Source of the DNA: Terebella lapidaria
Taxonomy: Eukaryota > Annelida > Polychaeta > Terebellida > Terebellidae
Direction of reading: 5' to 3'
NCBI GenBank assembly: GCA_949152475.1
Contig: OX424560.1
Span: 18,415,106-18,479,105 of the forward strand
DNA length: 64,000 bases
Made by a program: the position numbers and the translations under genes. Of this stretch, positions 25,308 to 61,073 are shown piece by piece (the first letter of the stretch is position 1; each line of letters opens with the position of its first letter). Under the pieces are notes generated by a model that saw nothing but the letters and a program-made list of their open reading frames with translations, was not told the DNA's origin and did not search any database.

Positions 25308-25309
25308 TA

Positions 25310-25320
25310 ACACCCCTTCA
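25310..25320 (-). promoter_or_regulatory. Copy A polypurine tract
   Basis: TGAAGGGGTGT in the minus sense, two bases before the 3' LTR, is where plus-strand DNA synthesis would be primed. It is short for a polypurine tract. The same 11-mer recurs three times near the start of pol. Confidence 0.6.
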
Positions 25321-30057: not shown

Positions 30058-33000
30058 TTATCTGTAGCGGGCCGGTCTGCGTGCGTGGCGTCTGGGTCGA
30101 TTTGGTCGTGCAGGCGGGGGCGTAGCCTCGCTTGTCTCGGGGTCGGAAGATACCACAGGCTTTTGCCTGCGTGTCTTGCGTGCCGGTTTTGGAGTGTCGG
30201 AACTTGATCTACGTGATCTTTTCCGTTGCCGATGTCGACTTGAGCCGGATGAGGTCGGAGATCGCGATTGACGATCCTGGGTCGTTTGCGAATCAGACTC
30301 TGCTGTTTGGTCTGAATCAGTATGCCGATCTTGGACTGTTACCTCCCAAGGGTAATAGAACTCCTTGAGAAGTCCCATGGGGTCGGGTGACTGTTCTGGG
30401 TCGGACTTGCTTGACGACGACGTGGGTCGTACAGGGTCGGAGTAGATGTGGGCCGCTTGGTTGTCACCTTCGTATGGCTTGAGCACATCCAGATGAACAA
30501 CACGAGTGTTCCGAGGGTTGGAAACCAGGGCGATTCGGTAATCAACCTCGGTTACACGGTCGATGATCCTCCAGGGACCAGTCCAGGGCCGAGCGAACTT
30601 ATTATTCTGCGTGAGTGGCAGATAATAATACCGGACCAGTTCGCCTGGTTGAAACTGGGGTCGTGGTTTCGCGTGGGCGTCATAACCCATCTTTTGCCGA
30701 ATTGCCGCTTTCTCGAGATGGTCTTGTGCGAAACCGTGGGCCGTTCTGATGGCTTGCCGCAAATACTCCACATACTCCGGACCACACGGAGGTAGAGGCT
30801 CAGGGTCGTAGGTCGGAAACATGAGGTCGACTGGCAAGTTACACTCGTGTCCATACACCATCAGATGCGGGGTGCATCCCGTGGACGAGTGTACTGAGGT
30901 TCGATAGGCCATTAACACATATGGCAAGTGCAAGTCCCAATCGTTTGCACGATCGCTGACGAACGCACTCAGCATGTTGAGCAATGTCCTGTTGAATCGC
31001 TCAACCTGGCCGTCGCTCTGGGGTCGGTATGGGGTCGTACGAATCTTCTTAGCGCCCAGTAGACGCACAACATGCCGGAACAGGGACGACTCAAACTCAG
31101 TACCTTGATCGCTATGGACCGCTTTGGGGACACCGTGGTAGACTATCCACCGATTCACCAGGGTGTCGGCAACATTTTTGGCCGTATGTCGCCGTAGCGG
31201 AAAAGCGTCAGTGTACTTCGTGAAGTAGTCCGACACGACTAGCACATACCGATAGCCTCTTCCCGTGACCTTGTGGGTGTCGAGGATGTCCATCGCTATT
31301 CTGTCGAACGGCGCTCCTGTCGGTAGCTGTGTCAGGGGCGATCTTTTTGGGGCCGGTTTACCCTTGCGGGTCACACATTGCGGGCAGCGGGCACACCAGC
31401 GGGCGACGTCCAGCGCCAAGCCAGGCCAGTAGAATCGGCGCCTGACTCTCTCGATGGTACGCTGTATGCCGAGATGTCCGACAATCTTGAGGTCGTGTAG
31501 TTGGTGCAGAACTTGTGTCCTGAGTGCTACGGGGAGCACGGTTTGCACCACGGGCCGTCCAGCAGGGTCGGGTTTTATATGTCGAACTAGCACACCGTCT
31601 TGTAGCGCCAGGAGGTTCCAGCGGGAAACAAGTGTCTTTACCTCCTCTCCTTGGCGGGCGACTTCTCGTGAGTCGGGCTTGGTGCCGGCTAGTATCCATT
31701 GCCGCACTTTTCCGACGCTGGGGTCGGCTTGCTGTGCCGCGACAATGTCCTGGGTCGAATAGTCCGAAAGCCACTTTTGTCCATCAAGTGTGGCGTCCAA
31801 AGCACGGACTCGAACAACTTGGCGTGCCGAAACTAGCTGGGGCAAGACCGGTGATGTTATCGAATCACTGTCCAGGAGGTCTGCCCTTGTCTGGGTCGGA
31901 ACAACAGTTATCCGACGAACTGGAAGTTCTCCGGAACTTGTTTCTGGGTCGGTCGGAGGTGTGACGAGTCGTCCGGGACAGTCTTGGTGTTTGCAACTGT
32001 GGCACCGTGACAAGCCGTCGGCGTTACCGTGTAATTTTCCGGGTCGATGCTCTATCCGAAAGTCATACTGCTGTAGCTTGGCGAGCCACCTAGCGAGCAT
32101 GCCGTCGGCGTCGCTGTAGTTTTTCAGCCACCTTAGCGAGCTATGGTCGGTTCGGAGGAGGAATTTCCTACCCCAGAGGTAGTGCCGATAGTGTTGCACC
32201 ATCTCAACTACTGCCAGTAGTTCCCGATAGGTGGTGCAATAGTTCCGCTGGGTCCGGGACAGGGTCTTGCTGGCGAACCCGATGGGGATCTCCTTCCCGT
32301 CAACCCTTTGTGAGAGGGCTCCTCCCACAGCAAAGCCGCTTGCATCCGTATCGAGGATGAAGTAGTCCTCCGGATTCTGGGTCGGATGAGCGAGCTTGGG
32401 CGCCTTGATGAGGGCGTCGCGGAGTCGCTGGAAAGCTCGTCGCTGGGCCGGTCCCCAAGTGAAGTGGCATTCACCTCGGGTAAGCGCTACGAGAGGTTCA
32501 GCGATCTCAGCGTAGTCCTTGATGAATCGCCTGTGGTAGTTGGCGAAACCAAGGAAAGCCCTGACGTCGGTGATCTCGCACGGGGTCGGCCATTCTCTGA
32601 TGGCTTTGACTTTGTTGGGGTCGACTCGGATTCCTTGGCCGCTCACTATGAACCCTAAGTACAAGATTTCCCGTTGAAATAACTCACACTTCTTGGGCTG
32701 AAGTTTCAGGCCTGCCGATCTGATTCGATCCAGGACCGCTTCCAGGTTTGCGAGTGCCTGATCGAATGTTCTGCCGTAAGCTATCACGTCGTCGAGATAG
32801 CACATACACCGGGTCCACAAGTAACCACGGAGTATGGTCTCCATAAGCCGTTCGAAGGTTGCCGGGGCGTTGCTAAGGCCGAATGGCATGACCTTAAACT
32901 GATAGAGTCCCTTCCTTGTGGCGAAGGCAGTCTTCGGTCTGTCGCTGGGGTCGACTTCAACCTGCCAGTAGCCAGAGGCCAGGTCTAGGGCCGAGAAGTA

Positions 33001-34632: not shown

Positions 34633-37166
34633 TTAGTTTGGTTACCGGTTTGGTTAGGTACTGACAACACTTGAGCTGTCCTTCTGTCAGTACCGGGACC
34701 ATTGGGCCGAAATGCTAGCGGTTTCATGCCGTTACGTACTAGCACATCCTTAAGCCGAAAGCATCGCATCCAGCGATGGCCGGGCTTCTTGCAAAAGAAG
34801 CACACCATGGGTCGTCCGGGTTGCGGGGGTCGATCACCTTTCATCGGGGCCGTTGTTCGTAGGACAGAGAAGATAGCCGTTTCCTCGCACAGTCCATTCT
34901 CGTCACTAAGGACGCACTGGAAGGCTTCGGCCACCCACTCGCGTGAGCTGGTTGGCACTGAGTGTTCGTCGCAACCTTGTAGGCCGGTAGTGTCACTGTC
35001 CGCGGGGTCGTAGTAGGCCGCAATTTGCTCTGGGGTTAGTGTTTCCCCCTGAGTGACTTGTCCCATGGCACAGGACAGTTCCTCATTGACAGGGTCGTCT
35101 TCCGCGTATCCGCTTGCGGAAATGTCAGCACGTCGTGTGCCTCGATGTCGATCTCTGGCTGTCCTCTGTTGACGACTCTCTACCTTGAGAACGGCCGTAA
35201 GTGCCTCACTGTAACTGTTAAAAGTGAGGGCACACAGTTTATCGGCAATGGGGTCGGGTTGGCCGTTCACGAATTGCGCAATTACAGTTCGTTGCCGCGA
35301 TGTTGGCGTAACGTCGTCGAACACTTGCTCCGCCAGGGCCTGGAGTCGCTCCATGTAGTGTTCCGCGTCCTCTTTTCGTTCCCGCTTGAGGAACGGGAAA
35401 TCGTCCCGTTTGGACTGTCGACGGGGCTCGGGTTCCCAGCCCTCTAGGAGTTGGCGACGGAACTCTCCCCAGGGAGTTGCGACCGGGATATTGAGAGCTA
35501 GCGCTTCAGCGCGGCCGCGTAGCGTGCTCCGGAAGGTCGTCGTCTTGTTGAGGTCGGAGTAAGTAAAGGCCGCAGCGAATTGTTCGAAACTCCGAACGTA
35601 TTGAGTGAGATTGCCCTCCTTAAAGGTCGCACGCCATTGAGCCATTTTAGCCGTAGCCAACGTTTGGGGCTCAGACGTGAGTCTCTGTGGCGTGGGCGTG
35701 TCAACACTCACCGCAACTGGTGTAGTCGCTGTAGTGGCCGTCGGGGTCGGAACAGCCGAAGTCGCCGGAGCCGTCGTATCTGGGCCGATCGGGGTCGCGT
35801 TAGCGGGGGCGGTCGGTGCTGTCGTCGCGGAGACGGCGAGCGATGCGGCGGGTGGTGCCGTCGTGTGGCTGGGGTCGTGTGGTGCTTGTGCAGCGGGGGC
35901 CGGTTGACTGTATGGAGGCGTCACCCATGGTATCCCGACTGAGGGTGGGAATACAGCCGGTGGTGGATATCGGTATACCGATCCATCCGGGCATACACCA
36001 TGGTACACTAATCCGGGTTGTGTACCATGATAGCCGGTGTCAGCGATCACGCTGGGAACGCCACCATATCCAGGCGGTGGGTTCGCGTAGCCGACATGCG
36101 GTGAATAGTATCCGACAGCTACTCCATTTGGAACACCGCTTGTTGCGCCAGGGTATCCGACTGGCGGTACACCATATCCGTTGGTGTTTCCGACTGATTG
36201 TGAGATCGGAGGTCCGATCATTTGCACAACACTTTCTGCCGGAGCAGACACAACTTGATCTTGCGACGGATCGAAGCGCGGTTGTTCTCCGGTAGTCGGC
36301 GATGGTCGGTGCGTGGTCGGCGCGGGAGCGCGTGTGTCGGAAGTCGGCGTGTCGGGGTCGCAGAGTCGGCGACTTGATGTCGAGGGTGCTTGTCGGGGTC
36401 GCGCTTGTCGCATAGTGGCGCGAGGTTCCGCCATTGTGTCGCTGGGTCGTTGTTGTCGTAGCGGCGTCGCGATCCGGGTAGCGGTCGTCATCAGGATGTC
36501 TTCGGATGTCGCTCCCGTCTGGCTGGGTCGTGTGTACTCTACCACCGTAGGCTCGGTCGGTATGCGTGAGTACATTTCTGGCGCGGGGCCGTGTTGTCTC
36601 GGCGTCATGGACGGCGCCAGGGGTCGATTGGCCGAATAAGCGTTCGGCGGGGTCGATTCCGGAACATTGTCAGACTGACAAACCCACTGTCGTATCCGAG
36701 AGTTACTTGGTGGGTGCGTAACCATTGACGTGTCTATGGTTACCGGCCGAACGTCCACTGCTAATTGTTCTGGGTCGATATCACAATCTACGCTCGCTCT
36801 TTGACGTGAGCGCGTATAGTTTCTGTCGGCAAAGTCACTTTTCTGGGTCGCTCTAGCCGGCGTGGCCGAGTACGCTCTAGCGTGCGCACGCAGAATGTCA
36901 CTTACTGTATGTGACGGGTCGAGCGGGTCTTCGTCTAGGAACTCCTGCACCAGGTCGGTAGGCGGCGAAAACGATCTCAGGGACGAATGGTCGCCAATGG
37001 AGTCGAAAAGGCCGGACGGTTGTTGCTCCTGCGACAGTGGAACTGTATCGCTCATGGCAACTGAGCGAGGGCCGGAAGGTCGGAAGGCCGGATTCGGATT
37101 GATCGTCACTTCATCATCCGTAGGGTCGAGTGGCTCACTGCGGGAGGCTCCCGGGGCTAATGCCAT
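34590..37166 (-). CDS. gag: Gag of copy A
   Basis: 858 residues from the ATG at 37166. The N-terminal half is disordered, with a Gly/Tyr/Pro-rich stretch (about residues 310-410) and a Thr/Ala/Pro-rich stretch before the capsid. The capsid-like retrotransposon gag domain runs from about 508 (MAQWRATFKEGNL) to 680. A CCHC zinc knuckle CFFCKKPGHRWMRC (about 789-802) would bind genomic RNA during packaging. It differs from copy B at only two residues near the start (A5/V, S10/G). The leader from the LTR to the ATG is only about 64 nt, unusually short. The protein is longer than typical gypsy Gag (about 300-500 residues) because of the disordered N-terminus. Confidence 0.9.
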   Translation of the reverse strand: MALAPGASRSEPLDPTDDEVTINPNPAFRPSGPRSVAMSDTVPLSQEQQPSGLFDSIGDHSSLRSFSPPTDLVQEFLDEDPLDPSHTVSDILRAHARAYSATPARATQKSDFADRNYTRSRQRASVDCDIDPEQLAVDVRPVTIDTSMVTHPPSNSRIRQWVCQSDNVPESTPPNAYSANRPLAPSMTPRQHGPAPEMYSRIPTEPTVVEYTRPSQTGATSEDILMTTATRIATPLRQQRPSDTMAEPRATMRQARPRQAPSTSSRRLCDPDTPTSDTRAPAPTTHRPSPTTGEQPRFDPSQDQVVSAPAESVVQMIGPPISQSVGNTNGYGVPPVGYPGATSGVPNGVAVGYYSPHVGYANPPPGYGGVPSVIADTGYHGTQPGLVYHGVCPDGSVYRYPPPAVFPPSVGIPWVTPPYSQPAPAAQAPHDPSHTTAPPAASLAVSATTAPTAPANATPIGPDTTAPATSAVPTPTATTATTPVAVSVDTPTPQRLTSEPQTLATAKMAQWRATFKEGNLTQYVRSFEQFAAAFTYSDLNKTTTFRSTLRGRAEALALNIPVATPWGEFRRQLLEGWEPEPRRQSKRDDFPFLKRERKEDAEHYMERLQALAEQVFDDVTPTSRQRTVIAQFVNGQPDPIADKLCALTFNSYSEALTAVLKVESRQQRTARDRHRGTRRADISASGYAEDDPVNEELSCAMGQVTQGETLTPEQIAAYYDPADSDTTGLQGCDEHSVPTSSREWVAEAFQCVLSDENGLCEETAIFSVLRTTAPMKGDRPPQPGRPMVCFFCKKPGHRWMRCFRLKDVLVRNGMKPLAFRPNGPGTDRRTAQVLSVPNQTGNQTKPAPPTPPTPSSNQ

Positions 37167-37211
37167 CAATGCCGGTCAGGTCTGGGTCGATAATCCGAGA
37201 CTAGCTCAGAT

Positions 37212-37230
37212 CCTGGTCGAACGGCGCCAA
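37212..37230 (-). other. Copy A primer-binding site
   Basis: Immediately after the 5' LTR, the minus sense reads T then TGGCGCCGTTCGACCAGG. The first seven bases (TGGCGCC) equal those of lysine-tRNA primer sites in other retroelements, but the rest does not fit that tRNA, so the primer is unassigned. Confidence 0.65.
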
Positions 37231-37962
37231 TGTGAAGAATATCGTTCACGGCCGATATTAAGCCGGTTTAACTGGGTCGTCGTGTGATACAATAAGCCGG
37301 CAGTTTCAATTTAACTGTTTATTGTGGTGATAAAGACTGATGATCAATCACGCACAATCAGGGTCGCACTCTCACCTACGTCGGGTGATATCCCAGTCTA
37401 TATTCTATATTCCTAATATAGTCCTTTATACAACTTGCACGTATATCCGATAGATTATATATATTAATATCGACAGTCTCACAGGAACTTTTGTATATAC
37501 GTCCTGCCACTGGGATTTACACTACACTTCTGCGCAGAAGACCGGGGCCGAGGGACCATGTGGCTGTGTAATTTCCCGCCAAGTGTAAGCGGTGTTGTGA
37601 TAGGTTGAATGTGTGGTGCAATGCGCTGATGTCACCGGGAAAGTGGGTTTCCCCGGCTCGTGTCAATACTTGGAATGCCTGTATGTGTGCACGTGATGTA
37701 TGGAGTATGTGTGTCAAGTTCTATGTTTAGAAGTCAGTGCATGTGAAGGTCAAGGTCGAGTAAACGGGGCCGAGTGTACTGAGCTAGCGGGGCCGCAGGT
37801 GCGTGGTTTGACCTGTGTAAGTAACCATGACTACATGGAGTTTATGCTTGTGATCGTATAGTGTGTACTTGTCCTGTATGTAAGTCATGTAGAATGAATG
37901 TTTGTTGTGGAAATGTGTAGTGCGCGGGAGGGACGGGAGTAACAGTCGCTAAAATTACTACA
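37231..37962 (-). repeat. Copy A 5' LTR with promoter
   Basis: 732 bp. In the minus sense TATAAA is at 37430-37425 and AATAAA at 37323-37318, placing U3, R and U5 in the normal order with transcription starting about 25-30 nt past the TATA box. No difference from the 3' LTR was found by eye. Confidence 0.92.
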
Positions 37963-47674: not shown

Positions 47675-48410
47675 TGTAGTAATTTTAGCGACTGTTACTC
47701 CCGTCCCTCCCGCGCACTATACATTTCCACAACAAACATTCATTCTACATGACTTACATACAGGACAAGTACACACTATACGATCACAAGCATAAACTCC
47801 ATGTAGTCATGGTTACATACACAGGTCAAACCACGCACCTGCGGCCCCGCTAGCTCAGTACACTCGGCCCCGTTTACTCGACCTTGACCTTCACATGCAC
47901 TGACTTCTAAACATAGAACTTGACACACATACTCCATACATCACGTGCACACATACAGGCATTCCAAGTATTGACACGAGCCGGGGAAACCCACTTTCCC
48001 GGTGACATCAGCGCATTGCACCACACATTCAACCTATCACAACACCGCTTACACTTGGCGGGAAATTACACAGCCACATGGTCCCTCGGCCCCAGTATAC
48101 TGCGCAGAAGTGTAGTGTAAATCCCAGTGGCAGGACGTGTATACAAGAAGCTCCTGTGAGACTGTCGATATTAATATATATAATCTATCGGATATATGTG
48201 CAAGTTGTATAAAGGACTATACTAGGAGTATATAGAAACATAGACTGGGATATCACCCGACGTAGGTGAGAGTGCGACCCTGATTGTGCGTGATTGATCA
48301 TCAGTCTTTATCACCACAATAAACAGTTAAATTGAAACTGCCGGCTTATTGTATCACACGACGACCCAGTTAAACCGGCTTGATATCGGCCGTGAACGAT
48401 ATTCGTCACA
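47675..48410 (+). repeat. Copy B 5' LTR
   Basis: 736 bp, TGTAGTAATTTT at the start and GTCACA at the end. It contains five CGRCCC motifs (47842, 47865, 48087, 48275, 48362). The 66-codon ORF inside each LTR is a chance frame. Confidence 0.95.
48208..48323 (+). promoter_or_regulatory. Copy B LTR TATA box and poly(A) signal
   Basis: TATAAA at 48208-48213 and AATAAA at 48318-48323, 105 bases apart. This spacing gives an R region starting near 48238 and ending soon after 48335. The stretch just downstream of the TATA box differs most from copy A. Confidence 0.7.
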
Positions 48411-48429
48411 TTGGCGCCGTTCGACCAGG
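48411..48429 (+). other. Copy B primer-binding site
   Basis: One T followed by TGGCGCCGTTCGACCAGG directly after the LTR, identical to copy A. The priming tRNA is not identified. Confidence 0.65.
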
Positions 48430-48474
48430 ATCTGAGCTAGTCTCGGATTATCGACCCAGACCTGACCGGCATTG

Positions 48475-51051
48475 ATGGCATTGGTCCCGGGAGCCTCCCG
48501 CGGTGAGCCACTCGACCCTACGGATGATGAAGTGACGATCAATCCGAATCCGGCCTTCCGACCTTCCGGCCCTCGCTCAGTTGCCATGAGCGATACAGTT
48601 CCACTGTCGCAGGAGCAACAACCGTCCGGCCTTTTCGACTCCATTGGCGACCATTCGTCCCTGAGATCGTTTTCGCCGCCTACCGACCTGGTGCAGGAGT
48701 TCCTAGACGAAGACCCGCTCGACCCGTCACATACAGTAAGTGACATTCTGCGTGCGCACGCTAGAGCGTACTCGGCCACGCCGGCTAGAGCGACCCAGAA
48801 AAGTGACTTTGCCGACAGAAACTATACGCGCTCACGTCAAAGAGCGAGCGTAGATTGTGATATCGACCCAGAACAATTAGCAGTGGACGTTCGGCCGGTA
48901 ACCATAGACACGTCAATGGTTACGCACCCACCAAGTAACTCTCGGATACGACAGTGGGTTTGTCAGTCTGACAATGTTCCGGAATCGACCCCGCCGAACG
49001 CTTATTCGGCCAATCGACCCCTGGCGCCGTCCATGACGCCGAGACAACACGGCCCCGCGCCAGAAATGTACTCACGCATACCGACCGAGCCTACGGTGGT
49101 AGAGTACACACGACCCAGCCAGACGGGAGCGACATCCGAAGACATCCTGATGACGACCGCTACCCGGATCGCGACGCCGCTACGACAACAACGACCCAGC
49201 GACACAATGGCGGAACCTCGCGCCACCATGCGACAAGCGCGACCCCGACAAGCACCCTCGACATCAAGTCGCCGACTCTGCGACCCCGACACGCCGACTT
49301 CCGACACACGCGCTCCCGCGCCGACCACGCACCGACCATCGCCGACTACCGGAGAACAACCGCGCTTCGATCCGTCGCAAGATCAAGTTGTGTCTGCTCC
49401 GGCAGAAAGTGTTGTGCAAATGATCGGACCTCCGATCTCACAATCAGTCGGAAACACCAACGGATATGGTGTACCGCCAGTCGGATACCCTGGCGCAACA
49501 AGCGGTGTTCCAAATGGAGTAGCTGTCGGATACTATTCACCGCATGTCGGCTACGCGAACCCACCGCCTGGATATGGTGGCGTTCCCAGCGTGATCGCTG
49601 ACACCGGCTATCATGGTACACAACCCGGATTAGTGTACCATGGTGTATGCCCGGATGGATCGGTATACCGATATCCACCACCGGCTGTATTCCCACCCTC
49701 AGTCGGGATACCATGGGTGACGCCTCCATACAGTCAACCGGCCCCCGCTGCACAAGCACCACACGACCCCAGCCACACGACGGCACCACCCGCCGCATCG
49801 CTCGCCGTCTCCGCGACGACAGCACCGACCGCCCCCGCTAACGCGACCCCGATCGGCCCAGATACGACGGCTCCGGCGACTTCGGCTGTTCCGACCCCGA
49901 CGGCCACTACAGCGACTACACCAGTTGCGGTGAGTGTTGACACGCCCACGCCACAGAGACTCACGTCTGAGCCCCAAACGTTGGCTACGGCTAAAATGGC
50001 TCAATGGCGTGCGACCTTTAAGGAGGGCAATCTCACTCAATACGTTCGGAGTTTCGAACAATTCGCTGCGGCCTTTACTTACTCCGACCTCAACAAGACG
50101 ACGACCTTCCGGAGCACGCTACGCGGCCGCGCTGAAGCGCTAGCTCTCAATATCCCGGTCGCAACTCCCTGGGGAGAGTTCCGTCGCCAACTCCTAGAGG
50201 GCTGGGAACCCGAGCCCCGTCGACAGTCCAAACGGGACGATTTCCCGTTCCTCAAGCGGGAACGAAAAGAGGACGCGGAACACTACATGGAGCGACTCCA
50301 GGCTCTGGCGGAGCAAGTGTTCGATGACGTTACGCCAACGTCGCGGCAACGAACTGTAATTGCGCAATTCGTGAACGGCCAACCCGACCCCATTGCCGAT
50401 AAACTGTGTGCCCTCACTTTTAACAGTTACAGTGAGGCACTTACGGCCGTTCTCAAGGTAGAGAGTCGTCAACAGAGGACAGCCAGAGATCGACATCGAG
50501 GCACACGACGTGCTGACATTTCCGCAAGCGGATACGCGGAAGACGACCCTGTCAATGAGGAACTGTCCTGTGCCATGGGACAAGTCACTCAGGGGGAAAC
50601 ACTAACCCCAGAGCAAATTGCGGCCTACTACGACCCCGCGGACAGTGACACTACCGGCCTACAAGGTTGCGACGAACACTCAGTGCCAACCAGCTCACGC
50701 GAGTGGGTGGCTGAAGCCTTCCAGTGCGTCCTTAGTGACGAGAATGGACTGTGCGAGGAAACGGCTATCTTCTCTGTCCTACGAACAACGGCCCCGATGA
50801 AAGGTGATCGACCCCCGCAACCCGGACGACCCATGGTGTGCTTCTTTTGCAAGAAGCCCGGCCATCGCTGGATGCGATGCTTTCGGCTTAAGGATGTGCT
50901 AGTACGTAACGGCATGAAACCGCTAGCATTTCGGCCCAATGGTCCCGGTACTGACAGAAGGACAGCTCAAGTGTTGTCAGTACCTAACCAAACCGGTAAC
51001 CAAACTAAACCGGCCCCACCAACACCTCCGACCCCGTCGTCAAACCAGTAG
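48475..51051 (+). CDS. gag: Gag of copy B
   Basis: 858 residues from the ATG at 48475 (the preceding TTG is not needed as a start). Layout: charged N-terminus, R/P/T-rich stretch to about 280, Gly/Tyr/Pro-rich prion-like stretch about 310-410 (repeats such as VGYPG, PPPGYGG), Ala/Thr/Pro linker, capsid domain about 508-680, and CCHC knuckle at about 789-802 encoded near 50839. It should assemble into cytoplasmic particles and bind element RNA. It ends at TAG 51049-51051, shortly after the -1 pol frame opens at 51009. No TG-rich leader or second gag start was found. Confidence 0.92.
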   Translation: MALVPGASRGEPLDPTDDEVTINPNPAFRPSGPRSVAMSDTVPLSQEQQPSGLFDSIGDHSSLRSFSPPTDLVQEFLDEDPLDPSHTVSDILRAHARAYSATPARATQKSDFADRNYTRSRQRASVDCDIDPEQLAVDVRPVTIDTSMVTHPPSNSRIRQWVCQSDNVPESTPPNAYSANRPLAPSMTPRQHGPAPEMYSRIPTEPTVVEYTRPSQTGATSEDILMTTATRIATPLRQQRPSDTMAEPRATMRQARPRQAPSTSSRRLCDPDTPTSDTRAPAPTTHRPSPTTGEQPRFDPSQDQVVSAPAESVVQMIGPPISQSVGNTNGYGVPPVGYPGATSGVPNGVAVGYYSPHVGYANPPPGYGGVPSVIADTGYHGTQPGLVYHGVCPDGSVYRYPPPAVFPPSVGIPWVTPPYSQPAPAAQAPHDPSHTTAPPAASLAVSATTAPTAPANATPIGPDTTAPATSAVPTPTATTATTPVAVSVDTPTPQRLTSEPQTLATAKMAQWRATFKEGNLTQYVRSFEQFAAAFTYSDLNKTTTFRSTLRGRAEALALNIPVATPWGEFRRQLLEGWEPEPRRQSKRDDFPFLKRERKEDAEHYMERLQALAEQVFDDVTPTSRQRTVIAQFVNGQPDPIADKLCALTFNSYSEALTAVLKVESRQQRTARDRHRGTRRADISASGYAEDDPVNEELSCAMGQVTQGETLTPEQIAAYYDPADSDTTGLQGCDEHSVPTSSREWVAEAFQCVLSDENGLCEETAIFSVLRTTAPMKGDRPPQPGRPMVCFFCKKPGHRWMRCFRLKDVLVRNGMKPLAFRPNGPGTDRRTAQVLSVPNQTGNQTKPAPPTPPTPSSNQ

Positions 51052-54000
51052 GGGAAGGTGCTGAGGAGCAAGGACCTTCCAGACAACAGGACAACGTTCC
51101 CCGCTCCACATCTGCGGTTGTCACGACTACTGTACCGGTAACGACACCAATAACGACCCCGCAGCCGGCCCAGCCCACACCTCAGCTCCTTGAAGGGGTG
51201 TGTACAAAATGTCAAGCTCCGACCCCGAAATCGGCCTCTTTTCATGAAGGGGTGTCCGCACCGCGGCCACAGCGACCACCACGTGGAGACCGTCGTCCTG
51301 AAGGGGTGTCACCCCCGACCGCCAACGGCACCGGAACGGACAGCATGTCCGAGATCGAGTGGATCTCCGACGACGGAGGATTCTACGCTTTTCCGAGTGG
51401 ACCGGAATCCAAACTGCCGCCTCTGCACACACTCTTCCGGCCACCGCTAGACGACCCCGAAATTCCGGCTGTCATCAACAACTCCAGCGCCACCAATCAC
51501 AAATGCTGGAAGTTGCCGGTACACGTCGGAAACAAGACGATAAAGGCTGTACTCGACTCCGGAGCGCAGATCTCCCTGCTCCGACGCGATCAGCTACGTC
51601 ACGTCCCCGCTGACCAGCGACATTTGCGGTCTACTTCGGCTATTATTCGTGACGTCACCGGACAGTCAAGCCCGATCGATGGACTGATCGACCTCTCAAT
51701 ACAGGTCGGAACTAACCATATGGTCGTAACCTTTTGTGTGGCTGACATACATGACGACATGATTCTCGGCATGAACTTTTTTCGGCAAGCTCACGCTGTA
51801 GTGAATTACGGTGAAGGGACGATACAGGTACACAAAGAAATCCTGTTCGCACATAAAGACATTGAGGCCAATGTTGTCAGAATGGCCGTGCGACGAGCTG
51901 TCACCGTCCCCGCACGCAGCGAAGCAATAGTGGAGCTGGTCCCGACTTCCCGAGTTCGAGTTCGACAACACCCGAGGATAGTCCAGCCACTTACGACCTT
52001 TCCCGAGGAAACCGACCTCATCATGGGGAGAACACTTACGACCCTGAATCGGCAGTGCGTAAAGGTGTCGGTAGTCAATCCAGCAGATACCGGCATTACG
52101 CTCACCCGTTCCGACCCTGTCGCCATAGCAAGCCCTGTCGAAAGTGTCGTCGGAGCCCTGCCACGACCCGGAGAGGAGCCCGACTCGGCCACGGTAGACG
52201 CCAGTCACTACCGCGACCTACCGCCACATCTACAAGAAATGGTGGATCGCGCCGGACTAGCGCCGGAACAGCATCGGCGTTGCGCCAACCTGGTTCACCA
52301 ATACCAGGACACATTTATGCACCCAGACGGCCAACTGGGACGGACCCAAGTCGTCCAGCATAGAATCGACACCGGCAACTCGGCCCCAATTCGACAACGA
52401 CAGCGACGCGTCCCTCAGGCGCAGCAAAGCATCATCGACGAGGAGATCGACAAGATGCTCCGCTTGGGGTGTATTGAGCCGTCCGATTCGCCCTGGAGCG
52501 CACAGGTAGTGCTCGTGCGGAAGAAGAACGGACAGGTACGCTTCTGTGTCGACTATCGGCTCCTGAATGACGTCACCCGCAAGGATTCGTATCCCTTGCC
52601 CAACATTCAGGATACTCATGACGCCCTGGCAGGCGCCAACTACTTCTCGGCCCTAGACCTGGCCTCTGGCTACTGGCAGGTTGAAGTCGACCCCAGCGAC
52701 AGACCGAAGACTGCCTTCGCCACAAGGAAGGGACTCTATCAGTTTAAGGTCATGCCATTCGGCCTTAGCAACGCCCCGGCAACCTTCGAACGGCTTATGG
52801 AGACCATACTCCGTGGTTACTTGTGGACCCGGTGTATGTGCTATCTCGACGACGTGATAGCTTACGGCAGAACATTCGACCAGGCACTCGCAAACCTGGA
52901 AGCGGTCCTGGATCGAATCAGATCGGCAGGCCTGAAACTTCAGCCCAAGAAGTGTGAGTTATTTCAACGGGAAATCTTGTACTTAGGGTTCATAGTGAGC
53001 GGCCAAGGAATCCGAGTCGACCCCAACAAAGTCAAAGCCATCAGAGAATGGCCGACCCCGTGCGAGATCACCGACGTCAGGGCTTTCCTTGGTTTCGCCA
53101 ACTACCACAGGCGATTCATCAAGGACTACGCTGAGATCGCTGAACCTCTCGTAGCGCTTACCCGAGGTGAATGCCACTTCACTTGGGGACCGGCCCAGCG
53201 ACGAGCTTTCCAGCGACTCCGCGACGCCCTCATCAAGGCGCCCAAGCTCGCTCATCCGACCCAGAATCCGGAGGACTACTTCATCCTCGATACGGATGCA
53301 AGCGGCTTTGCTGTGGGAGGAGCCCTCTCACAAAGGGTTGACGGGAAGGAGATCCCCATCGGGTTCGCCAGCAAGACCCTGTCCCGGACCCAGCGGAACT
53401 ATTGCACCACCTATCGGGAACTACTGGCAGTAGTTGAGATGGTGCAACACTATCGGCACTACCTCTGGGGTAGGAAATTCCTCCTCCGAACCGACCATAG
53501 CTCGCTAAGGTGGCTGAAAAACTACAGCGACGCCGACGGCATGCTCGCTAGGTGGCTCGCCAAGCTACAGCAGTATGACTTTCGGATAGAGCATCGACCC
53601 GGAAAATTACACGGTAACGCCGACGGCTTGTCACGGTGCCACAGTTGCAAACACCAAGACTGTCCCGGACGACTCGTCACACCTCCGACCGACCCAGAAA
53701 CAAGTTCCGGAGAACTTCCAGTTCGTCGGATAACTGTTGTTCCGACCCAGACAAGGGCAGACCTCCTGGACAGTGATTCGATAACATCACCGGTCTTGCC
53801 CCAGCTAGTTTCGGCACGCCAAGTTGTTCGAGTCCGTGCTTTGGACGCCACACTTGATGGACAAAAGTGGCTTTCGGACTATTCGACCCAGGACATTGTC
53901 GCGGCACAGCAAGCCGACCCCAGCGTCGGAAAAGTGCGGCAATGGATACTAGCCGGCACCAAGCCCGACTCACGAGAAGTCGCCCGCCAAGGAGAGGAGG

Positions 54001-55583
54001 TAAAGACACTTGTTTCCCGCTGGAACCTCCTGGCGCTACAAGACGGTGTGCTAGTTCGACATATAAAACCCGACCCTGCTGGACGGCCCGTGGTGCAAAC
54101 CGTGCTCCCCGTAGCACTCAGGACACAAGTTCTGCACCAACTACACGACCTCAAGATTGTCGGACATCTCGGCATACAGCGTACCATCGAGAGAGTCAGG
54201 CGCCGATTCTACTGGCCCGGCTTGGCGCTGGACGTCGCCCGCTGGTGTGCCCGCTGCCCGCAATGTGTGACCCGCAAGGGTAAACCGGCCCCAAAAAGAT
54301 CGCCCCTGACACAGCTACCGACAGGAGCGCCGTTCGACAGAATAGCGATGGACATCCTCGACACCCACAAGGTCACGGGAAGAGGCTATCGGTATGTGCT
54401 AGTCGTGTCGGACTACTTCACGAAGTACACTGACGCTTTTCCGCTACGGCGACATACGGCCAAAAATGTTGCCGACACCCTGGTGAATCGGTGGATAGTC
54501 TACCACGGTGTCCCCAAAGCGGTCCATAGCGATCAAGGTACTGAGTTTGAGTCGTCCCTGTTCCGGCATGTTGTGCGTCTACTGGGCGCTAAGAAGATTC
54601 GTACGACCCCATACCGACCCCAGAGCGACGGCCAGGTTGAGCGATTCAACAGGACATTGCTCAACATGCTGAGTGCGTTCGTCAGCGATCGTGCAAACGA
54701 TTGGGACTTGCACTTGCCATATGTGTTAATGGCCTATCGAACCTCAGTACACTCGTCCACGGGATGCACCCCGCATCTGATGGTGTATGGACACGAGTGT
54801 AACTTGCCAGTCGACCTCATGTTTCCGACCTACGACCCTGAGCCTCTACCTCCGTGTGGTCCGGAGTATGTGGAGTATTTGCGGCAAGCCATCAGAACGG
54901 CCCACGGTTTCGCCCAAGACCATCTCGAGAAAGCGGCAATTCGGCAAAAGTTGGGTTATGACGCCCACGCGAAACCACGACCCCAGTTTCAACCAGGCGA
55001 ACTGGTCCGGTATTATTATCTGCCACTCACGCAGAATAATAAGTTCGCTCGGCCCTGGACTGGTCCCTGGAGGATCATCGACCGTGTAACCGAGGTTGAT
55101 TACCGAATCGCCCTGGTTTCCAACCCTCGGAACACTCGTGTTGTTCATCTGGATGTGCTCAAGCCATACGAAGGTGACAACCAAGCGGCCCACATCTACT
55201 CCGACCCTGTACGACCCACGTCGTCGTCAAGCAAGTCCGACCCAGAACAGTCACCCGACCCCATGGGACTTCTCAAGGAGTTCTATTACCCTTGGGAGGT
55301 AACAGTCCAAGATCGGCATACTGATTCAGACCAAACAGCAGAGTCTGATTCGCAAACGACCCAGGATCGTCAATCGCGATCTCCGACCTCATCCGGCTCA
55401 AGTCGACATCGGCAACGGAAAAGATCACACAGATCAAGTTCCGACACTCCAAAACCGGCACGCAAGACACGCAGGCAAAAGCCTGTGGTATCTTCCGACC
55501 CCGAGACAAGCGAGGCTACGCCCCCGCCTGCACGACCAAATCGACCCAGACGCCACGCACGCAGACCGGCCCGCTACAGATAA
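51009..55583 (+). CDS. pol: Pol polyprotein of copy B
   Basis: Open in the -1 frame from 51009 (after TAA at 51006) to the stop at 55583. The first ATG is only at 51344, so translation most likely arrives by frameshift from gag in the 43-nt overlap. No canonical X-XXY-YYZ heptamer is evident; the closest is A-AAC-CAG before the gag stop. Encoded landmarks: protease LDSGA near 51552, RT YLDD near 52842, RNase H DTDAS near 53290, integrase zinc site 54136-54265, DD35E acidic residues near 54349, 54531 and 54639. The RT palm, RNase H and integrase are complete, so the copy could be active. Lineage within Ty3/gypsy is not assigned; no chromodomain is present. Confidence 0.95.
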   Translation, partial: TGPTNTSDPVVKPVGEGAEEQGPSRQQDNVPRSTSAVVTTTVPVTTPITTPQPAQPTPQLLEGVCTKCQAPTPKSASFHEGVSAPRPQRPPRGDRRPEGVSPPTANGTGTDSMSEIEWISDDGGFYAFPSGPESKLPPLHTLFRPPLDDPEIPAVINNSSATNHKCWKLPVHVGNKTIKAVLDSGAQISLLRRDQLRHVPADQRHLRSTSAIIRDVTGQSSPIDGLIDLSIQVGTNHMVVTFCVADIHDDMILGMNFFRQAHAVVNYGEGTIQVHKEILFAHKDIEANVVRMAVRRAVTVPARSEAIVELVPTSRVRVRQHPRIVQPLTTFPEETDLIMGRTLTTLNRQCVKVSVVNPADTGITLTRSDPVAIASPVESVVGALPRPGEEPDSATVDASHYRDLPPHLQEMVDRAGLAPEQHRRCANLVHQYQDTFMHPDGQLGRTQVVQHRIDTGNSAPIRQRQRRVPQAQQSIIDEEIDKMLRLGCIEPSDSPWSAQVVLVRKKNGQVRFCVDYRLLNDVTRKDSYPLPNIQDTHDALAGANYFSALDLASGYWQVEVDPSDRPKTAFATRKGLYQFKVMPFGLSNAPATFERLMETILRGYLWTRCMCYLDDVIAYGRTFDQALANLEAVLDRIRSAGLKLQPKKCELFQREILYLGFIVSGQGIRVDPNKVKAIREWPTPCEITDVRAFLGFANYHRRFIKDYAEIAEPLVALTRGECHFTWGPAQRRAFQRLRDALIKAPKLAHPTQNPEDYFILDTDASGFAVGGALSQRVDGKEIPIGFASKTLSRTQRNYCTTYRELLAVVEMVQHYRHYLWGRKFLLRTDHSSLRWLKNYSDADGMLARWLAKLQQYDFRIEHRPGKLHGNADGLSRCHSCKHQDCPGRLVTPPTDPETSSGELPVRRITVVPTQTRADLLDSDSITSPVLPQLVSARQVVRVRALDATLDGQKWLSDYSTQDIVAAQQADPSVGKVRQWILAGTKPDSREVARQGEEVKTLVSRWNLLALQDGVLVRHIKPDPAGRPVVQTVLPVALRTQVLHQLHDLKIVGHLGIQRTIERVRRRFYWPGLALDVARWCARCPQCVTRKGKPAPKRSPLTQLPTGAPFDRIAMDILDTHKVTGRGYRYVLVVSDYFTKYTDAFPLRRHTAKNVADTLVNRWIVYHGVPKAVHSDQGTEFESSLFRHVVRLLGAKKIRTTPYRPQSDGQVERFNRTLLNMLSAFVSDRANDWDLHLPYVLMAYRTSVHSSTGCTPHLMVYGHECNLPVDLMFPTYDPEPLPPCGPEYVEYLRQAIRTAHGFAQDHLEKAAIRQKLGYDAHAKPRPQFQPGELVRYYYLPLTQNNKFARPWTGPWRIIDRVTEVDYRIALVSNPRNTRVVHLDVLKPYEGDNQAAHIYSDPVRPTSSSSKSDPEQSPDPMGLLKEFYYPWEVTVQDRHTDSDQTAESDSQTTQDRQSRSPTSSGSSRHRQRKRSHRSSSDTPKPARKTRRQKPVVSSDPETSEATPPPARPNRPRRHARRPARYR
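51191..51309 (+). repeat. Copy B: three TGAAGGGGTGT boxes spaced 54 nt
   Basis: Exact copies at 51191-51201, 51245-51255 and 51299-51309, the same 11-mer as the polypurine tract at 60325-60335. In pol they encode EGV in an 18-residue period (EGVCTK, EGVSAP, EGVSPP); the intervening codons are unrelated. Confidence 0.85.
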
Positions 55584-57031
55584 CCCCGGCCTTGTTATCT
55601 GATTGATATCATTGATGATGAATTATGCATGTCTAATGGACTATGATATCATGTCTTTCCCAATAATAATATATTATATTACAATAACAATATATGCATT
55701 TAACATGTACAAGATGTCAGTGAGGCAAACTCGATATATACACACTAGATATGATATTATAATTATGATGCTGGTGAAAAATTGGTTGCATTATGATATG
55801 TGTTTCGACCCCGTATAACATGTACCATTGATCAAAGCGTATGTTACGCAATGACTAAGATTATCATGTAAAGCTTCCATCCATGTGCCAGCCGAAGAGG
55901 ATAATAACCAGTCACACCGTGAGTAAGGCCACTTAGTTGTCGAAGAGGTGATAGTGTGATTCGTTCTGGAGTATGCGTCGACAGAGCCTCTACTCACTCC
56001 ATGTAATATTCGGAGGAACGGCCCAGTGGTACGTGAACCAGTCACTACATAGCTATCATGCCAAGATGCGGCCTGTCATCAAATTCATCACCCAAAATAT
56101 TCAAAGCGCCGCGGTGTGACCGACCCAGATCATTGCAATTTCGACCCCTACAATATTTGCGGCCCCGTCGTCCTGTGAACTGGCTGAAAATGAATGGAAC
56201 GATGTCCGCCCCTGTGAGTGATTGATATTCATATCTCAGCCTTTAATAACTGTGTGTCGTCTGTGAAACAGCAACTCGACCCCGTAGTTTATTGTGCGCT
56301 AACTTGTGGGAGAAGGAATGATGGACTGATGAGTTCACAAGGCACGCACGAGCGCTAATAAACATTTCAGCTGTTTACAGCACCTACATGAAGTCGCCCC
56401 TAATAATTACAATAGTGAGTCGTCGGGCAAAAAGAGCCCAGTAATCTGAACAGTCGACTAGTATAAATAGACAATGATTCGGCACGAGTTATCCAGGGGA
56501 CGGCAGATGGACATACGGAAATCTGGACAGTGTGAGGACACCCCTACTGTCGTAATGGACTGACCCAAGAGGTCAGAGAAGGATCGCCCCGCGTTTCCTT
56601 GACGACGGCCCCGCCTTGCTGTGTGTACGCTTGGAACAATGATACATAGCGTAAAGACGTTTTCTATACATATAGAGAGCGCCCCCCGGCCCAGTTCTAA
56701 GAATCGAGATGCTGTCAGCATCTTTGTGTACGGCATTGAAGATTAGCGGCAATCAGGTCACTTGTGCCTGAGACTTTGGAGGAGAAGGACTATTGTCAGA
56801 AGTTTCGGCTATTGTAATACAGACTATTGTTATAGAAACTGTGCTAATCGAACAATATTTATCGGCCTATAGACTGTGATATCATTGAAATCCTGGTCAC
56901 AAGACTTTGGAGTTAATTCGGCTTGTATTATCGGCATTTGAACTAGGCTGGTTTTGAAGAAATCTAGACTTTGTTACAGCCAGCCTAGTCAGTACTTGGG
57001 AAGTACTTCGGCTTGATTTCGGCCCGTCAGC
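55584..57031 (+). other. Copy B spacer between pol and ORF3
   Basis: 1448 nt without a supported ORF, AT-rich at the left (55600-55800). It still holds about nine CGRCCC motifs (for example near 55806, 56014, 56111, 56133, 56163, 56279 and 56604). A pyrimidine-poor TGTTACAGCCAGCCTAG near 56975 could be a splice acceptor for ORF3 mRNA. Confidence 0.7.
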
Positions 57032-59830
57032 ATGGCTGACAAACCCGGAGACGACCGGGAAAATGGCGACCCAGGTGACAATCGGCCCCGCACAGTTAAG
57101 TTGGACGGCGATAACATCACCGTCCAAGTGATCGACACCGGGGATGAATCGGATCATCCTATAGTCGTCCCCGACAACGAAGGTTCGTCCGGCCCCGACT
57201 CGCAGCCTGAACAGCGCGATCCAGTCACGCTCAGTGACACGGCAAGTGGATCGGAAAAGGGAGCGCGACCCAAAACGGCCCGGAACAAGCTGGCGCAACG
57301 AGGAGAGCGCCATACACCGAGCCCGACTCCGGATGATATCTTCAATATCGACCCCGAACGCTTCCGCCGACTCGAGGAGGGCGGAAGTATCGTCCAGCGT
57401 GCGATTGAGGCACGACAAGCGGCCCAAGAAGCTCAACGAGTCGCCACCGCGAGCCGCCAACCCGACCCAGCAAATCAGGTGATCGCCCCGATCGCTCCGG
57501 CCCCGACTTCACCCGCTTCCGGTTCAGCGGTAGCACGACCCGCGGCCTCCCGTTCTCCAAACAAGAGAACTTATACTTCTTTCAAGAAGAAGCATGGAGC
57601 GGGAGCCCGATCGACCTCCAGCAGTTCGTCACGCTCCAGCGGCGGATCTGCTATTACGGCCCCGACCTCGACTTTCCGTCGGCAAGTGGCGGAATTAATG
57701 GAATTGGTGCCACCTCCCGTGACACCCTACGGAACTCGGCCCATAGACTGGAACAAGGTTCCACTCAGTAAGCGAAATCGGAGCGCTGGATACGGCCACA
57801 TCCATAACTTCGATGAGCAGTCGACCCTGTCGGAGGGAAACCTCCTCACATTGGCCCCGCTACAGCGTGGAGACGGTCGATTCGAGTGCCCCTTCTGCAT
57901 CGGCGAAGAGGAGGGAGCAGGAGAACGACAGTGGTCCTCCGTGCCACGACGCGGACCTTTTCGGACGGCCCAGAGTCTTGATGCGCACGTGCTAGCGTAT
58001 CATTTTCCGTTCCTGCGCTACTTCGTGTGTCCGGCCCGCGACGGCTTCCGGACATTGGCCCAGGAGGAGATGTTCCGGCATCTGTCTCAAGCGACCCCGC
58101 AACACGTGACGTCGTTCCCCTTCTACCAGGAAGGACGACTATCGGCATCCGGCCCCATGCTCGTCAGGTTCGCGCTACGCTGCAGAGTCGACATGCAGCC
58201 GAACCCGAATTATCGACCCCCAAGAGTTCCGGCCAACATCCCGATCTTCAGGAGGGATGTCAACACCGTCCTGACGTTCGGCATCTGGCACATGGCGCCA
58301 GAGCTCTTTGAGCAGTATCCGCCCAACTCGGCCCCGGAAGTGCAACAGGTACTCCGTCGACTGGAGTACAATCGTGCTTCGACCCCGGCAGACGAGATTC
58401 GGCTTACCCGCATGGTCAGTGACATCGAGACCATGAACACGCGGGTTCGAATTCGACGACCCAGTACGATCTTCTTCGTTCGGCCCATAAACTACCAGAC
58501 GACATCAGTGAGCACGGCGGAGGAGGTCCCGACAACGACCACCGGTGTTTCGGCCTCGGCGGTCGTCACGACGGCTTCGTTCGCGACAGTGGTGTCGCCA
58601 GCGACAACTCGACCGGTCACCACAGTGACATCTTCGACCCCGTCTAGAGCTCGGCCGTCGGATATCATACCCCGGCGGATGGTTGTGGAACGACCCACGG
58701 CCTCTAACGTCACGGACTACCGAGTCCGTGAGGGATTGGTCCCTCCACCTGAGGAGTATCCGCTACTCCCAAGTCGACCCCTGAATACCACACCGGTATC
58801 GTCATCAACCGGCAAGGAGACTCCCGAGCCGAAGAGTCCAGTTGAGGATCGGCCACCTCCACTCAGGGAGATTGCACCCGGATCTCCTGTACGTGCGACC
58901 CCGACACCGTTTTCGACCCCGGAATCTTCACCGGAGCCTTCACGACGGATGGTGGAACCCGTCCCGCTCCCGCCGTACCTCACGGAGGAAGTGGAACCTC
59001 TGCGTTCCGTTCCGACACGCGGCACCGATCGAGACCGGCCCCGACTCCAAGTGGACGACCCAGAGCAGCTCGAGTCACTCCACAGAGACCTCGACGAGCG
59101 TCTGCCGCTTCATGGATCCGGCGAGTTCGCGGCCGATTTCCAGTTCCTGCGGCAACACGGCAGACGTTTGGCGACCCGCTCGCTTCCCGGCCTGCAGGCA
59201 CTACCCGGCCAGAATCCCGACCTCACAGACTTCCTACGGGATGAGGACGCCCAGCGGCTCCCGAACTACCTCGGATTTCACGAGGACTTTTGGACGGCTC
59301 GTCTCGAACAGGCCGCCCATAATGCCGACCCCTTGCTTCTGCCGTCAGAACCGGAGGAGCACCTTCCGACCCTGTCACTCGCCCGCGCTGACGATTTAGC
59401 GCACCAGTACTTGCGACTGATTCGTCGGGAGTATCTGTCGGCCCTGGATCACCACATCAGGCAGGCAGAATATAACGGCCTGTCTGTCGGCTTTGGGATG
59501 GGTGCTCTGCACGAGCGCCACCAGCCCACGTTCCCGGACGCCCTGTCCGAAGAGAATCTACGGCTTCGAGTCCGTGTGACTCAGTTGGAGGACCAAGTCG
59601 CCCACCAACGACAGGAAATCACTCGGCTTCGAGCGACTTCGACCCCGACGCCATCGGAGGCACAAGCTCCGTCGACCCCGACCACACCGACCATCCCAGG
59701 GGAGTTGTTGGCCACGATCGTGTCCATCCTGCCCAGACTGCCCCCGGACGAACAACTACAGCTGATGCGGCAGGCATCGCCAGCGGCCCCGCCTCCTCCC
59801 GCCAGCAGGCGTGAACGGGAGGACAAGTGA
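57032..59830 (+). CDS. ORF3 of copy B, unknown accessory protein (932 aa)
   Basis: Family not recognised. Begins ATG at 57032 (MADKPGDD). Visible parts: acidic 1-110; alanine-rich amphipathic helix about 108-142; basic/serine patch 175-210; Cys/His cluster 286-357 (CPFC, then His319 and His324 in a 'LDAHVLAYH' segment, then FVCPARDGF and FRHL) reminiscent of C2H2 fingers; Thr/Val/Pro-rich linker about 470-680; conserved-looking helical segment about 690-830; coiled coil 838-875; proline-rich end. No signal peptide, membrane helix or furin-type site, so it is not an obvious envelope. Maintained intact in both copies, which suggests it matters to the element. A nuclear or RNA/DNA-binding role is plausible but unproven. 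Confidence 0.82.
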   Translation: MADKPGDDRENGDPGDNRPRTVKLDGDNITVQVIDTGDESDHPIVVPDNEGSSGPDSQPEQRDPVTLSDTASGSEKGARPKTARNKLAQRGERHTPSPTPDDIFNIDPERFRRLEEGGSIVQRAIEARQAAQEAQRVATASRQPDPANQVIAPIAPAPTSPASGSAVARPAASRSPNKRTYTSFKKKHGAGARSTSSSSSRSSGGSAITAPTSTFRRQVAELMELVPPPVTPYGTRPIDWNKVPLSKRNRSAGYGHIHNFDEQSTLSEGNLLTLAPLQRGDGRFECPFCIGEEEGAGERQWSSVPRRGPFRTAQSLDAHVLAYHFPFLRYFVCPARDGFRTLAQEEMFRHLSQATPQHVTSFPFYQEGRLSASGPMLVRFALRCRVDMQPNPNYRPPRVPANIPIFRRDVNTVLTFGIWHMAPELFEQYPPNSAPEVQQVLRRLEYNRASTPADEIRLTRMVSDIETMNTRVRIRRPSTIFFVRPINYQTTSVSTAEEVPTTTTGVSASAVVTTASFATVVSPATTRPVTTVTSSTPSRARPSDIIPRRMVVERPTASNVTDYRVREGLVPPPEEYPLLPSRPLNTTPVSSSTGKETPEPKSPVEDRPPPLREIAPGSPVRATPTPFSTPESSPEPSRRMVEPVPLPPYLTEEVEPLRSVPTRGTDRDRPRLQVDDPEQLESLHRDLDERLPLHGSGEFAADFQFLRQHGRRLATRSLPGLQALPGQNPDLTDFLRDEDAQRLPNYLGFHEDFWTARLEQAAHNADPLLLPSEPEEHLPTLSLARADDLAHQYLRLIRREYLSALDHHIRQAEYNGLSVGFGMGALHERHQPTFPDALSEENLRLRVRVTQLEDQVAHQRQEITRLRATSTPTPSEAQAPSTPTTPTIPGELLATIVSILPRLPPDEQLQLMRQASPAAPPPPASRREREDK

Positions 59831-60324
59831 AATTCGTCCCTGAACTGTTCGGCCCCTTGAACGCGGCCCCCACCGAGTGACCAAACAATTCTGGTCACGG
59901 CACATATATATTGTAAATAGTTGTACATATACATTTAATATCCTAGTCATGGCTTTTCGTTTTTATACATGTAATTTAGTTAAATTTAATCTACATTTTA
60001 TTTCAGTTCATTAGACTCTTAAAGTTATAGTTCCGTTTCGCTTTGAAACGTCGAGGAGTTTTGTTTATCATTCCATATCATACATTCCATTCATTGTTGT
60101 GCATGTATTTGTATATGTATCATCGTAGAGACTGCTGACGGACTGACTGCTGACGTTTATTTTGACAGTTAGGAATTTTTATTGTATGAAGTGTTTTCGC
60201 ATTTCGCGCGGCGTGTGTGTGTGAGTGCTTTTGGGTTTGACCTTTAGGACTTTTTAGCTTTTTATTGTTTAGTTTTTGGCGACGGTAGGGTCCGGGGAGG
60301 GTAATCCCGAGGGCGTAGGATTAA

Positions 60325-60335
60325 TGAAGGGGTGT
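60325..60335 (+). promoter_or_regulatory. Copy B polypurine tract
   Basis: AATGAAGGGGTGTTA directly precedes the 3' LTR (starts 60338), the expected place for plus-strand priming. Confidence 0.6.
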
Positions 60336-60337
60336 TA

Positions 60338-61073
60338 TGTAGTAATTTTAGCGACTGTTACTCCCGTCCCTCCCGCGCACTATACATTTCCACAACAAAC
60401 ATTCATTCTACATGACTTACATACAGGACAAGTACACACTATACGATCACAAGCATAAACTCCATGTAGTCATGGTTACATACACAGGTCAAACCACGCA
60501 CCTGCGGCCCCGCTAGCTCAGTACACTCGGCCCCGTTTACTCGACCTTGACCTTCACATGCACTGACTTCTAAACATAGAACTTGACACACATACTCCAT
60601 ACATCACGTGCACACATACAGGCATTCCAAGTATTGACACGAGCCGGGGAAACCCACTTTCCCGGTGACATCAGCGCATTGCACCACACATTCAACCTAT
60701 CACAACACCGCTTACACTTGGCGGGAAATTACACAGCCACATGGTCCCTCGGCCCCAGTATACTGCGCAGAAGTGTAGTGTAAATCCCAGTGGCAGGACG
60801 TGTATACAAGAAGCTCCTGTGAGACTGTCGATATTAATATATATAATCTATCGGATATATGTGCAAGTTGTATAAAGGACTATACTAGGAGTATATAGAA
60901 ACATAGACTGGGATATCACCCGACGTAGGTGAGAGTGCGACCCTGATTGTGCGTGATTGATCATCAGTCTTTATCACCACAATAAACAGTTAAATTGAAA
61001 CTGCCGGCTTATTGTATCACACGACGACCCAGTTAAACCGGCTTGATATCGGCCGTGAACGATATTCGTCACA
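60338..61073 (+). repeat. Copy B 3' LTR
   Basis: 736 bp, no difference from the 5' LTR detected by eye, including the variant block around the TATA box. It is followed directly by the target duplication TATAC. Confidence 0.95.

Follow-up and report, generated by a model that had tools for sequence, protein, structure and literature searches.

A dense sense-strand hexamer spans a Ty3/gypsy-type retroelement of the annelid Terebella lapidaria and may serve as an RNA recognition code

We have analysed a 64,000-nucleotide stretch of the genome of Terebella lapidaria (assembly GCA_949152475.1, contig OX424560.1, positions 18,415,106 to 18,479,105 of the forward strand), hereafter the window, which carries two copies, A and B, of one Ty3/gypsy-type long terminal repeat (LTR) element. 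The sense strand of both copies is filled with the hexamer CGRCCC (R is A or G), which occurs in coding and non-coding parts and in every codon phase, and its reverse complement GGGYCG (Y is C or T) is absent from that strand. We find good evidence for selection acting on a single strand. We consider it about as likely as not that the word, superimposed on the coding sequence, serves as a recognition code dispersed along the genomic RNA, with the zinc knuckle of Gag or the product of the third open reading frame (ORF) of the element, ORF3, as its most likely reader.

Results

Abundance, strand restriction and controls

We have found 121 CGRCCC on the sense strand of copy B, namely 76 CGACCC and 45 CGGCCC, together with no GGGYCG; the corresponding numbers on the sense strand of copy A are 122 and 0. 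These counts agree with a first-pass annotation of this DNA, which had arrived at about 120 sense hexamers by hand and had seen essentially no GGGTCG or GGGCCG on that strand. In dinucleotide shuffles (n = 300), CGRCCC is expected only 15.8 ± 4.0 times in the forward direction (maximum 28) and 6.4 ± 2.5 times in the reverse direction. Most of the copy-B motifs (97 of 121) lie inside ORFs, where the summed mean of synonymous-codon shuffles is 24.8. For gag, pol and ORF3 respectively, the counts are 26, 35 and 36 against 7.8 ± 2.5, 9.5 ± 2.5 and 7.5 ± 2.4 (500 shuffles per ORF, none with more than 17 motifs), that is, three to five times the shuffle count in each ORF. The motifs are spread over all codon phases, with 25 in phase 0, 42 in phase 1 and 30 in phase 2. 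In addition, the non-coding parts hold 19 motifs where a first-order Markov model predicts 1.09, with one LTR counted, and the word is present in all six parts of the element examined. The earlier observations of five motifs per LTR, of motifs in the pol-ORF3 spacer (nine by our count) and of the use of all phases are reproduced as well.

When all hexamers are ranked against synonymous shuffles with the three ORFs pooled, CGACCC comes first (z = 12.1) and CGGCCC second (z = 7.9), the largest z in a null of 150 shuffles being 5.8. Above every null value are also CGACCC in pol alone (z = 7.7) and both CGGCCC (z = 7.8) and CGACCC (z = 7.3) in ORF3 alone. In two host ORFs taken as a control no word stands out in this way, the highest z being 4.7 with null values of up to 6.0. 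The 37.2 kb of host DNA in the window contain 3 forward and 4 reverse motifs against 5.8 and 4.6 expected. The flanking DNA is indeed nearly free of the motif, as the first-pass annotation had stated, but this is chance level and not a special avoidance. No two motifs are less than 10 bases apart, which hints weakly at a footprint.

Codon bias, a repeated peptide and base composition are ruled out as causes of the excess by the shuffles, the phase spread, the hexamer ranking and the filling of encodable contexts described below. The first-pass annotation had already rejected the former two, and this holds, since the shuffle means are far below the counts and all phases are used. Counts within the shuffle range, equal counts on the two strands and restriction to one codon phase had been named as outcomes contrary to a motif excess, and none of them has been found. 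A tandem-repeat origin is likewise ruled out, as Tandem Repeats Finder gives no array within copy B.

Saturation of the coding sequence

We have also asked how many of the places where the protein sequence permits the word actually carry it. These encodable contexts are filled in 97 of 157 cases, whereas the codon usage of the element predicts 24.2, a figure that is already inflated because the motif codons contribute to this usage. The proportion is highest for the dipeptides D-P or G-P (30 of 38), followed by R-P (25 of 38) and the pattern [SPTA][TA]x (42 of 81). Furthermore, encodable contexts are mildly commoner than in residue-shuffled proteins (z of 2.0, 2.3 and 1.6 for the three ORFs), so that the order of amino acids may yield to the word too.

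Shape of the word

The word extends to CGRCCCHG, where H is a base other than G, and has weaker relatives of the form CGRCC[T/A]. The HG tail follows 70 of 116 motifs, compared with 46 of the 182 CCC triplets lying clear of any motif; at the non-coding sites, G stands at the eighth position in 14 of 19 cases, and the H position favours C. The last core position also takes T and A more often than expected, with 28 CGRCCT against 7.2 (3.9-fold) and 26 CGRCCA against 9.5 (2.75-fold). The 11 one-step neighbours at core positions 1–4 each have a z between -1.5 and +1.5, and together they number 55 against about 68. CCCC is rare outside the word (26 against 54.4), so there is no general preference for C-runs. 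On the other hand, CGRC is enriched in the ORFs (48472–59830) outside CGRCCC sites, chiefly as TCGGC (33 against 12.3); these additional occurrences are possibly weaker sites.

Predicted accessibility in the sense RNA

We have further compared the predicted local unpairing of the sense RNA with that of shuffles in which the motif codons are held fixed and the other synonymous codons exchanged. The CCC of the motif is predicted to be unpaired at a level of 0.654, compared with 0.588 ± 0.014 in 80 shuffles, none of which reaches this value (z = +4.6), while the 152 other CCC triplets show no shift in the same shuffles (0.467 against 0.467). With a longer folding span, the prediction for the motif CCC is 0.635 against 0.573 ± 0.015 (0 of 60 shuffles, z = +4.1), and openness is lower than in the shuffles for the other CCC triplets (z = -2.8) and for the RNA overall (z = -6.0). 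The effect is smaller for the whole hexamer (z = +2.7, 0 of 80; longer span z = +2.9, 0 of 60), and a variant in which only the motifs are fixed agrees (0.522 against 0.473 ± 0.012 in 60 shuffles, maximum 0.502). In addition, there are fewer copies of GGGY, which is complementary to RCCC, than expected (20 against 44.0); the deficit of GYCG is smaller (100 against 118.3).

The motif flanks do not pair with each other more than chance allows (highest z 2.6 over 764 tests), and display of the motif in hairpins is rejected, the hairpin-loop share being 0.196 compared with 0.202 for the control CCC. Overall, the predicted pattern fits a linear word kept single-stranded in the RNA and thereby favours single-strand recognition. 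The same predicted pattern would hold equally for a single complementary DNA (cDNA) strand.

Anatomy of the element and its two copies

The features of the element are collected in Table 1. Its LTRs have TG...CA ends and are identical within each copy (736 bp in B, 732 bp in A), and the identity between the LTRs of the two copies is about 97.8%. The copies lie in opposite orientation about 10 kb apart and, by eye, are flanked by the target-site duplications TATAC (copy B) and CGAA (copy A). As each copy has identical LTRs and its own short target-site duplication, the sequences indicate that A and B were inserted separately and recently and stem from sublineages that differ slightly. Between them there are 89 substitutions, of which 69 are transitions, in all four directions; those inside the ORFs comprise 27 synonymous and 10 nonsynonymous changes.

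Table 1 Positions of the element copies and of the parts of copy B in the window, with their motif content.
Feature	Position	Strand	Observations
Copy A, inverted, same element	24576..37962	-	122 CGRCCC on own sense strand, 0 antisense; 120 common with B
Copy B, Ty3/gypsy-type LTR element	47675..61073	+	121 sense CGRCCC, 0 antisense
5' LTR of copy B	47675..48410	+	736 bp, TG...CA, identical to 3' LTR; 5 motifs
Leader after 5' LTR	48411..48474	+	Putative primer-binding site, start TGGCGCC (by eye); one motif at 48452
ORF1, Gag-like	48472..51051	+	One CCHC knuckle, residues 790–803; 26 motifs in 52 encodable contexts
ORF2, Pol	51198..55583	+	Protease, reverse transcriptase, RNase H, integrase; 35 motifs in 55 encodable contexts
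Pol-ORF3 spacer, non-coding, 1,448 bp	55584..57031	+	9 motifs, 7 of 9 being CGRCCCHG
ORF3, 932 aa	57032..59830	+	36 motifs in 50 encodable contexts; densest part, 12.9 per kb
3' LTR of copy B	60338..61073	+	736 bp; 5 motifs

Pol has the domain order of Ty3/gypsy elements, with Pfam matches at residues 107–197, 440–600, 691–793 and 1045–1141. In a BLAST comparison with 120 proteins, residues 524–636 of Gag match residues 154–268 of P0112 (E 3e-5), a Pol relative for which PF03732 (Retrotrans_gag) is listed. Phmmer gives no match, and no Pfam match is found either, so this assignment of a capsid-like part of Gag is a weak one. ORF3 contains one C2H2-like motif (C286, C289, H319, H324) and no strongly hydrophobic segment, its highest 19-residue hydropathy being 1.36.

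Searches for relatives

The closest of the matches listed for Pol, a metagenomic relative, is 73% identical over residues 400–1200. Identity over this region is 65–73% for the nine closest metagenomic relatives, among which a pseudoscorpion hit of 45% is not counted. At the DNA level, searches of viral contigs with Pol (as a single sequence and as an alignment) and with ORF3 gave no relative, and genome contigs yielded a single match, some 300 bases long and situated at the end of a locus (L001) that shows no motif excess. A triple-motif scan of the viral contigs returned at least 120 stretches; the six dense, strand-biased ones that were listed have at least 4 motifs in just one 1-kb bin each, one of these stretches being one bin long. 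No report of such an element-wide word was found in a limited open-access collection of literature.

Other features of the window

The DNA around the two elements is AT-rich. A 20-bp satellite, TTCTATTCGCGAATAAAACG, is repeated about 78 times at 8829–10393 and has an internal inverted arrangement. Two long ORFs on the minus strand, at 2287–3798 and 14603–18073, resemble transient receptor potential (TRP)-type channels by eye and end in similar multi-helix segments; Pfam gives no match for the former and ankyrin repeats for the latter. Such ORFs are in keeping with an animal genome. Host tandem repeats occur at 46642–46951, with an 18-bp unit in an open frame that encodes a T/S-A-E-P-like repeat, and at 62878–63064, with the 15-bp unit GAAGCACCGTTCGCG.

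Discussion

Based on the above analyses, we infer that selection is the cause of the motif excess and that a protein reads the word. According to the reading that we favour, the linear word CGRCCCHG would recur in the genomic RNA at intervals of about 110 bases, from one LTR through to the other. Its frequency would be maintained by selection on synonymous codons and non-coding sequence, and less so on amino-acid order, and the same selection would keep it restricted to the sense strand and unpaired. An element protein, either Gag with its CCHC knuckle or ORF3 with its C2H2-like motif, would then bind the word along the whole RNA, and the bound RNA would be recognised as self and be coated or packaged. 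An element-encoded reader is preferred because the word marks only the element within the window and because the element encodes two candidate nucleic-acid-binding proteins. In a more specific form, which we put forward tentatively, the word would be an almost exact, linear, family-specific RNA barcode by which the element's own protein tells self from host RNA, and relatives may use different words.

Several observations weigh against this reading. A host RNA-binding protein fits the sequence evidence equally well. The motif spacing is random, with a coefficient of variation of 1.02, and thus gives no sign of a geometric packaging lattice, and neither the hairpin-loop share nor the flank pairing shows the stem-loop display that marks known packaging signals. 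The weak CGRCC[AT] sites have no significant gain in predicted accessibility (z = +1.4, 4 of 60 shuffles), and CGRCCT and CGRCCA lack the HG tail (present in 4 of 32 and 4 of 27 cases, respectively). In gag alone the top hexamer, CGACCC (z = 6.1), stays below the largest null value of 6.5, and CGGCCC is outside the top four hexamers in gag alone and in pol alone. As for the candidate readers, ORF3 matches neither a Pfam family above the cut-off nor any NCBIfam family or PDB chain, and 7,993 scored candidates contain no relative of it. Its residues 226–489, folded without relatives, gave a mean predicted local distance difference test (pLDDT) score of 29, and the model was set aside; Gag has no database relative among about 8,000 scored candidates.

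Conservation is part of the same difficulty. In the closest Pol relative, 9 of 34 alignable motif sites are still encodable, and across ten Pol relatives this number is 6 to 12 of 29 to 34; unused contexts are kept no better than motif sites (4 of 18). The excess of motif-compatible residues in this Pol (z = +2.3) is reached by none of the first 40 of the 120 listed relatives (z from -2.5 to +1.5). It may be that only this lineage has the word. Between A and B, which have 120 motif sites in common, 3 of the 89 substitutions fall in motif cores against 4.9 by chance, that is, the cores are not measurably conserved beyond chance. As motif positions are not conserved, most copies of the word in relatives, if present, must sit elsewhere. 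The sequence comparisons thus speak against an ancient fixed set of sites and would allow a young, lineage-specific code.

Among the other explanations, a host protein is the one to be taken most seriously, unlikely as we consider it. Such an RNA-binding protein would read a word that the element has gained for export, stability, or protection of its very long RNA from premature 3'-end formation or small-RNA silencing. The sense-strand restriction, the frame independence and the predicted accessibility fit this idea just as they fit an element-encoded reader, and the last four positions of the word, CCHG, resemble CCNG, the consensus of the splicing factor SRSF2. However, the word is not enriched in the host DNA of the window, only 37 kb in extent, or in the two host ORFs, so a broad host pathway using it is not visible there, and a specificity of 6–8 bases is longer than most host RNA-binding motifs. 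It is rather improbable that ORF3 is a sequence-specific anti-silencing or chromatin factor in the manner of VANC and binds the word in double-stranded DNA. The element does encode an additional protein with a C2H2-like motif, the short motif is concentrated in the element, with the host DNA of the window showing only chance numbers, and VANC21 recognises a motif of 9 bases within the family to which it belongs (PMC5735166). Yet the word is dispersed, mostly coding, not tandem and strictly in one orientation. Accessibility in RNA is unexpected for a double-stranded site, and the depletion of GGGY rather than of GYCG fits avoided pairing better than avoided antisense sites. Heavy DNA methylation is also unlikely in this host, as CpG in the host DNA of the window is not depleted (observed/expected 0.94).

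The first-pass annotation had left selection and a mutational process on the RNA or on a single DNA strand side by side. Of these, recognition of a single strand is supported by the predicted accessibility, and a mutational process is disfavoured by the 3 core changes against 4.9 and by the lack of a clearly depleted neighbour (z -1.5 to +1.5). We thus regard a mutational or reverse-transcription bias that makes CGRCCC on one strand as very improbable. It would explain why the word is found in every part of the element and in all frames, and the joint shortage of the 11 neighbours (55 against about 68) is what conversion would leave, although competition under selection would leave it also. 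On the other hand, the word is used where codons permit it, with three long ORFs still open, and only 3 motif sites distinguish the two copies, whose 89 substitutions include 69 transitions in all four directions. Least probable of all is pairing with a trans-acting RNA bearing GGGUCG, whose U would accept A or G at the R position. This variable position is exactly what a wobble-tolerant U accepts, but the last core position is also enriched in A (26 against 9.5), which cannot pair with G, and no single base can pair with all sites at the H position, which prefers C. Finally, a reading of the word as an N6-methyladenosine (m6A) mark can be dismissed by reasoning, as CGGCCC is without the A of the DRACH context.

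If recognition by an element protein is nonetheless the right explanation, it bears on the open question of how the RNA of a retroelement or virus is told from cellular RNA along its length, beyond one packaging site. As about 120 exact core sites are readable in one RNA, hypotheses on binding, packaging, export and silencing are directly testable. Compared with Ty3/gypsy elements in general, the present element has the same Gag-Pol-LTR anatomy, and differs in the additional ORF3, for which no relatives were detected, and in the element-wide word. Short, dense, strand-biased words spread through coding DNA are familiar from Chi and KOPS, and the word resembles them in all these respects; they are bacterial, chromosome-wide and read on DNA, and we know of no comparable machinery for an LTR element.

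The closest element-specific word that we have found is that of the VANC proteins of the VANDAL elements in Arabidopsis, where, by analogy, a short word specific to one mobile-element family likewise goes with a candidate reader encoded by the element. The sites of the VANC proteins are in double-stranded DNA and lie within non-coding tandem repeats (PMC5735166, PMC10398659), whereas the present word is dispersed, mostly coding and on one strand; no VANC-type tandem arrangement is found here, with 97 of 121 motifs in ORFs, random spacing and no array in copy B. In their way of working, the closest known counterparts would be the dispersed packaging signals of human parechovirus 1, MS2 and hepatitis B virus, in which many RNA sites sharing a coat-protein recognition word lie along the genome (PMC5431903, PMC6281560). 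Those signals are described there as degenerate, hard to see (PMC5431903) and placed in stem-loops, while the present word is nearly exact, linear, free of hairpins and placed at 97 of 157 permitted positions. The likeness lies in the many copies of one word along a single RNA, 121 in this case, which by prediction are accessible in that RNA.

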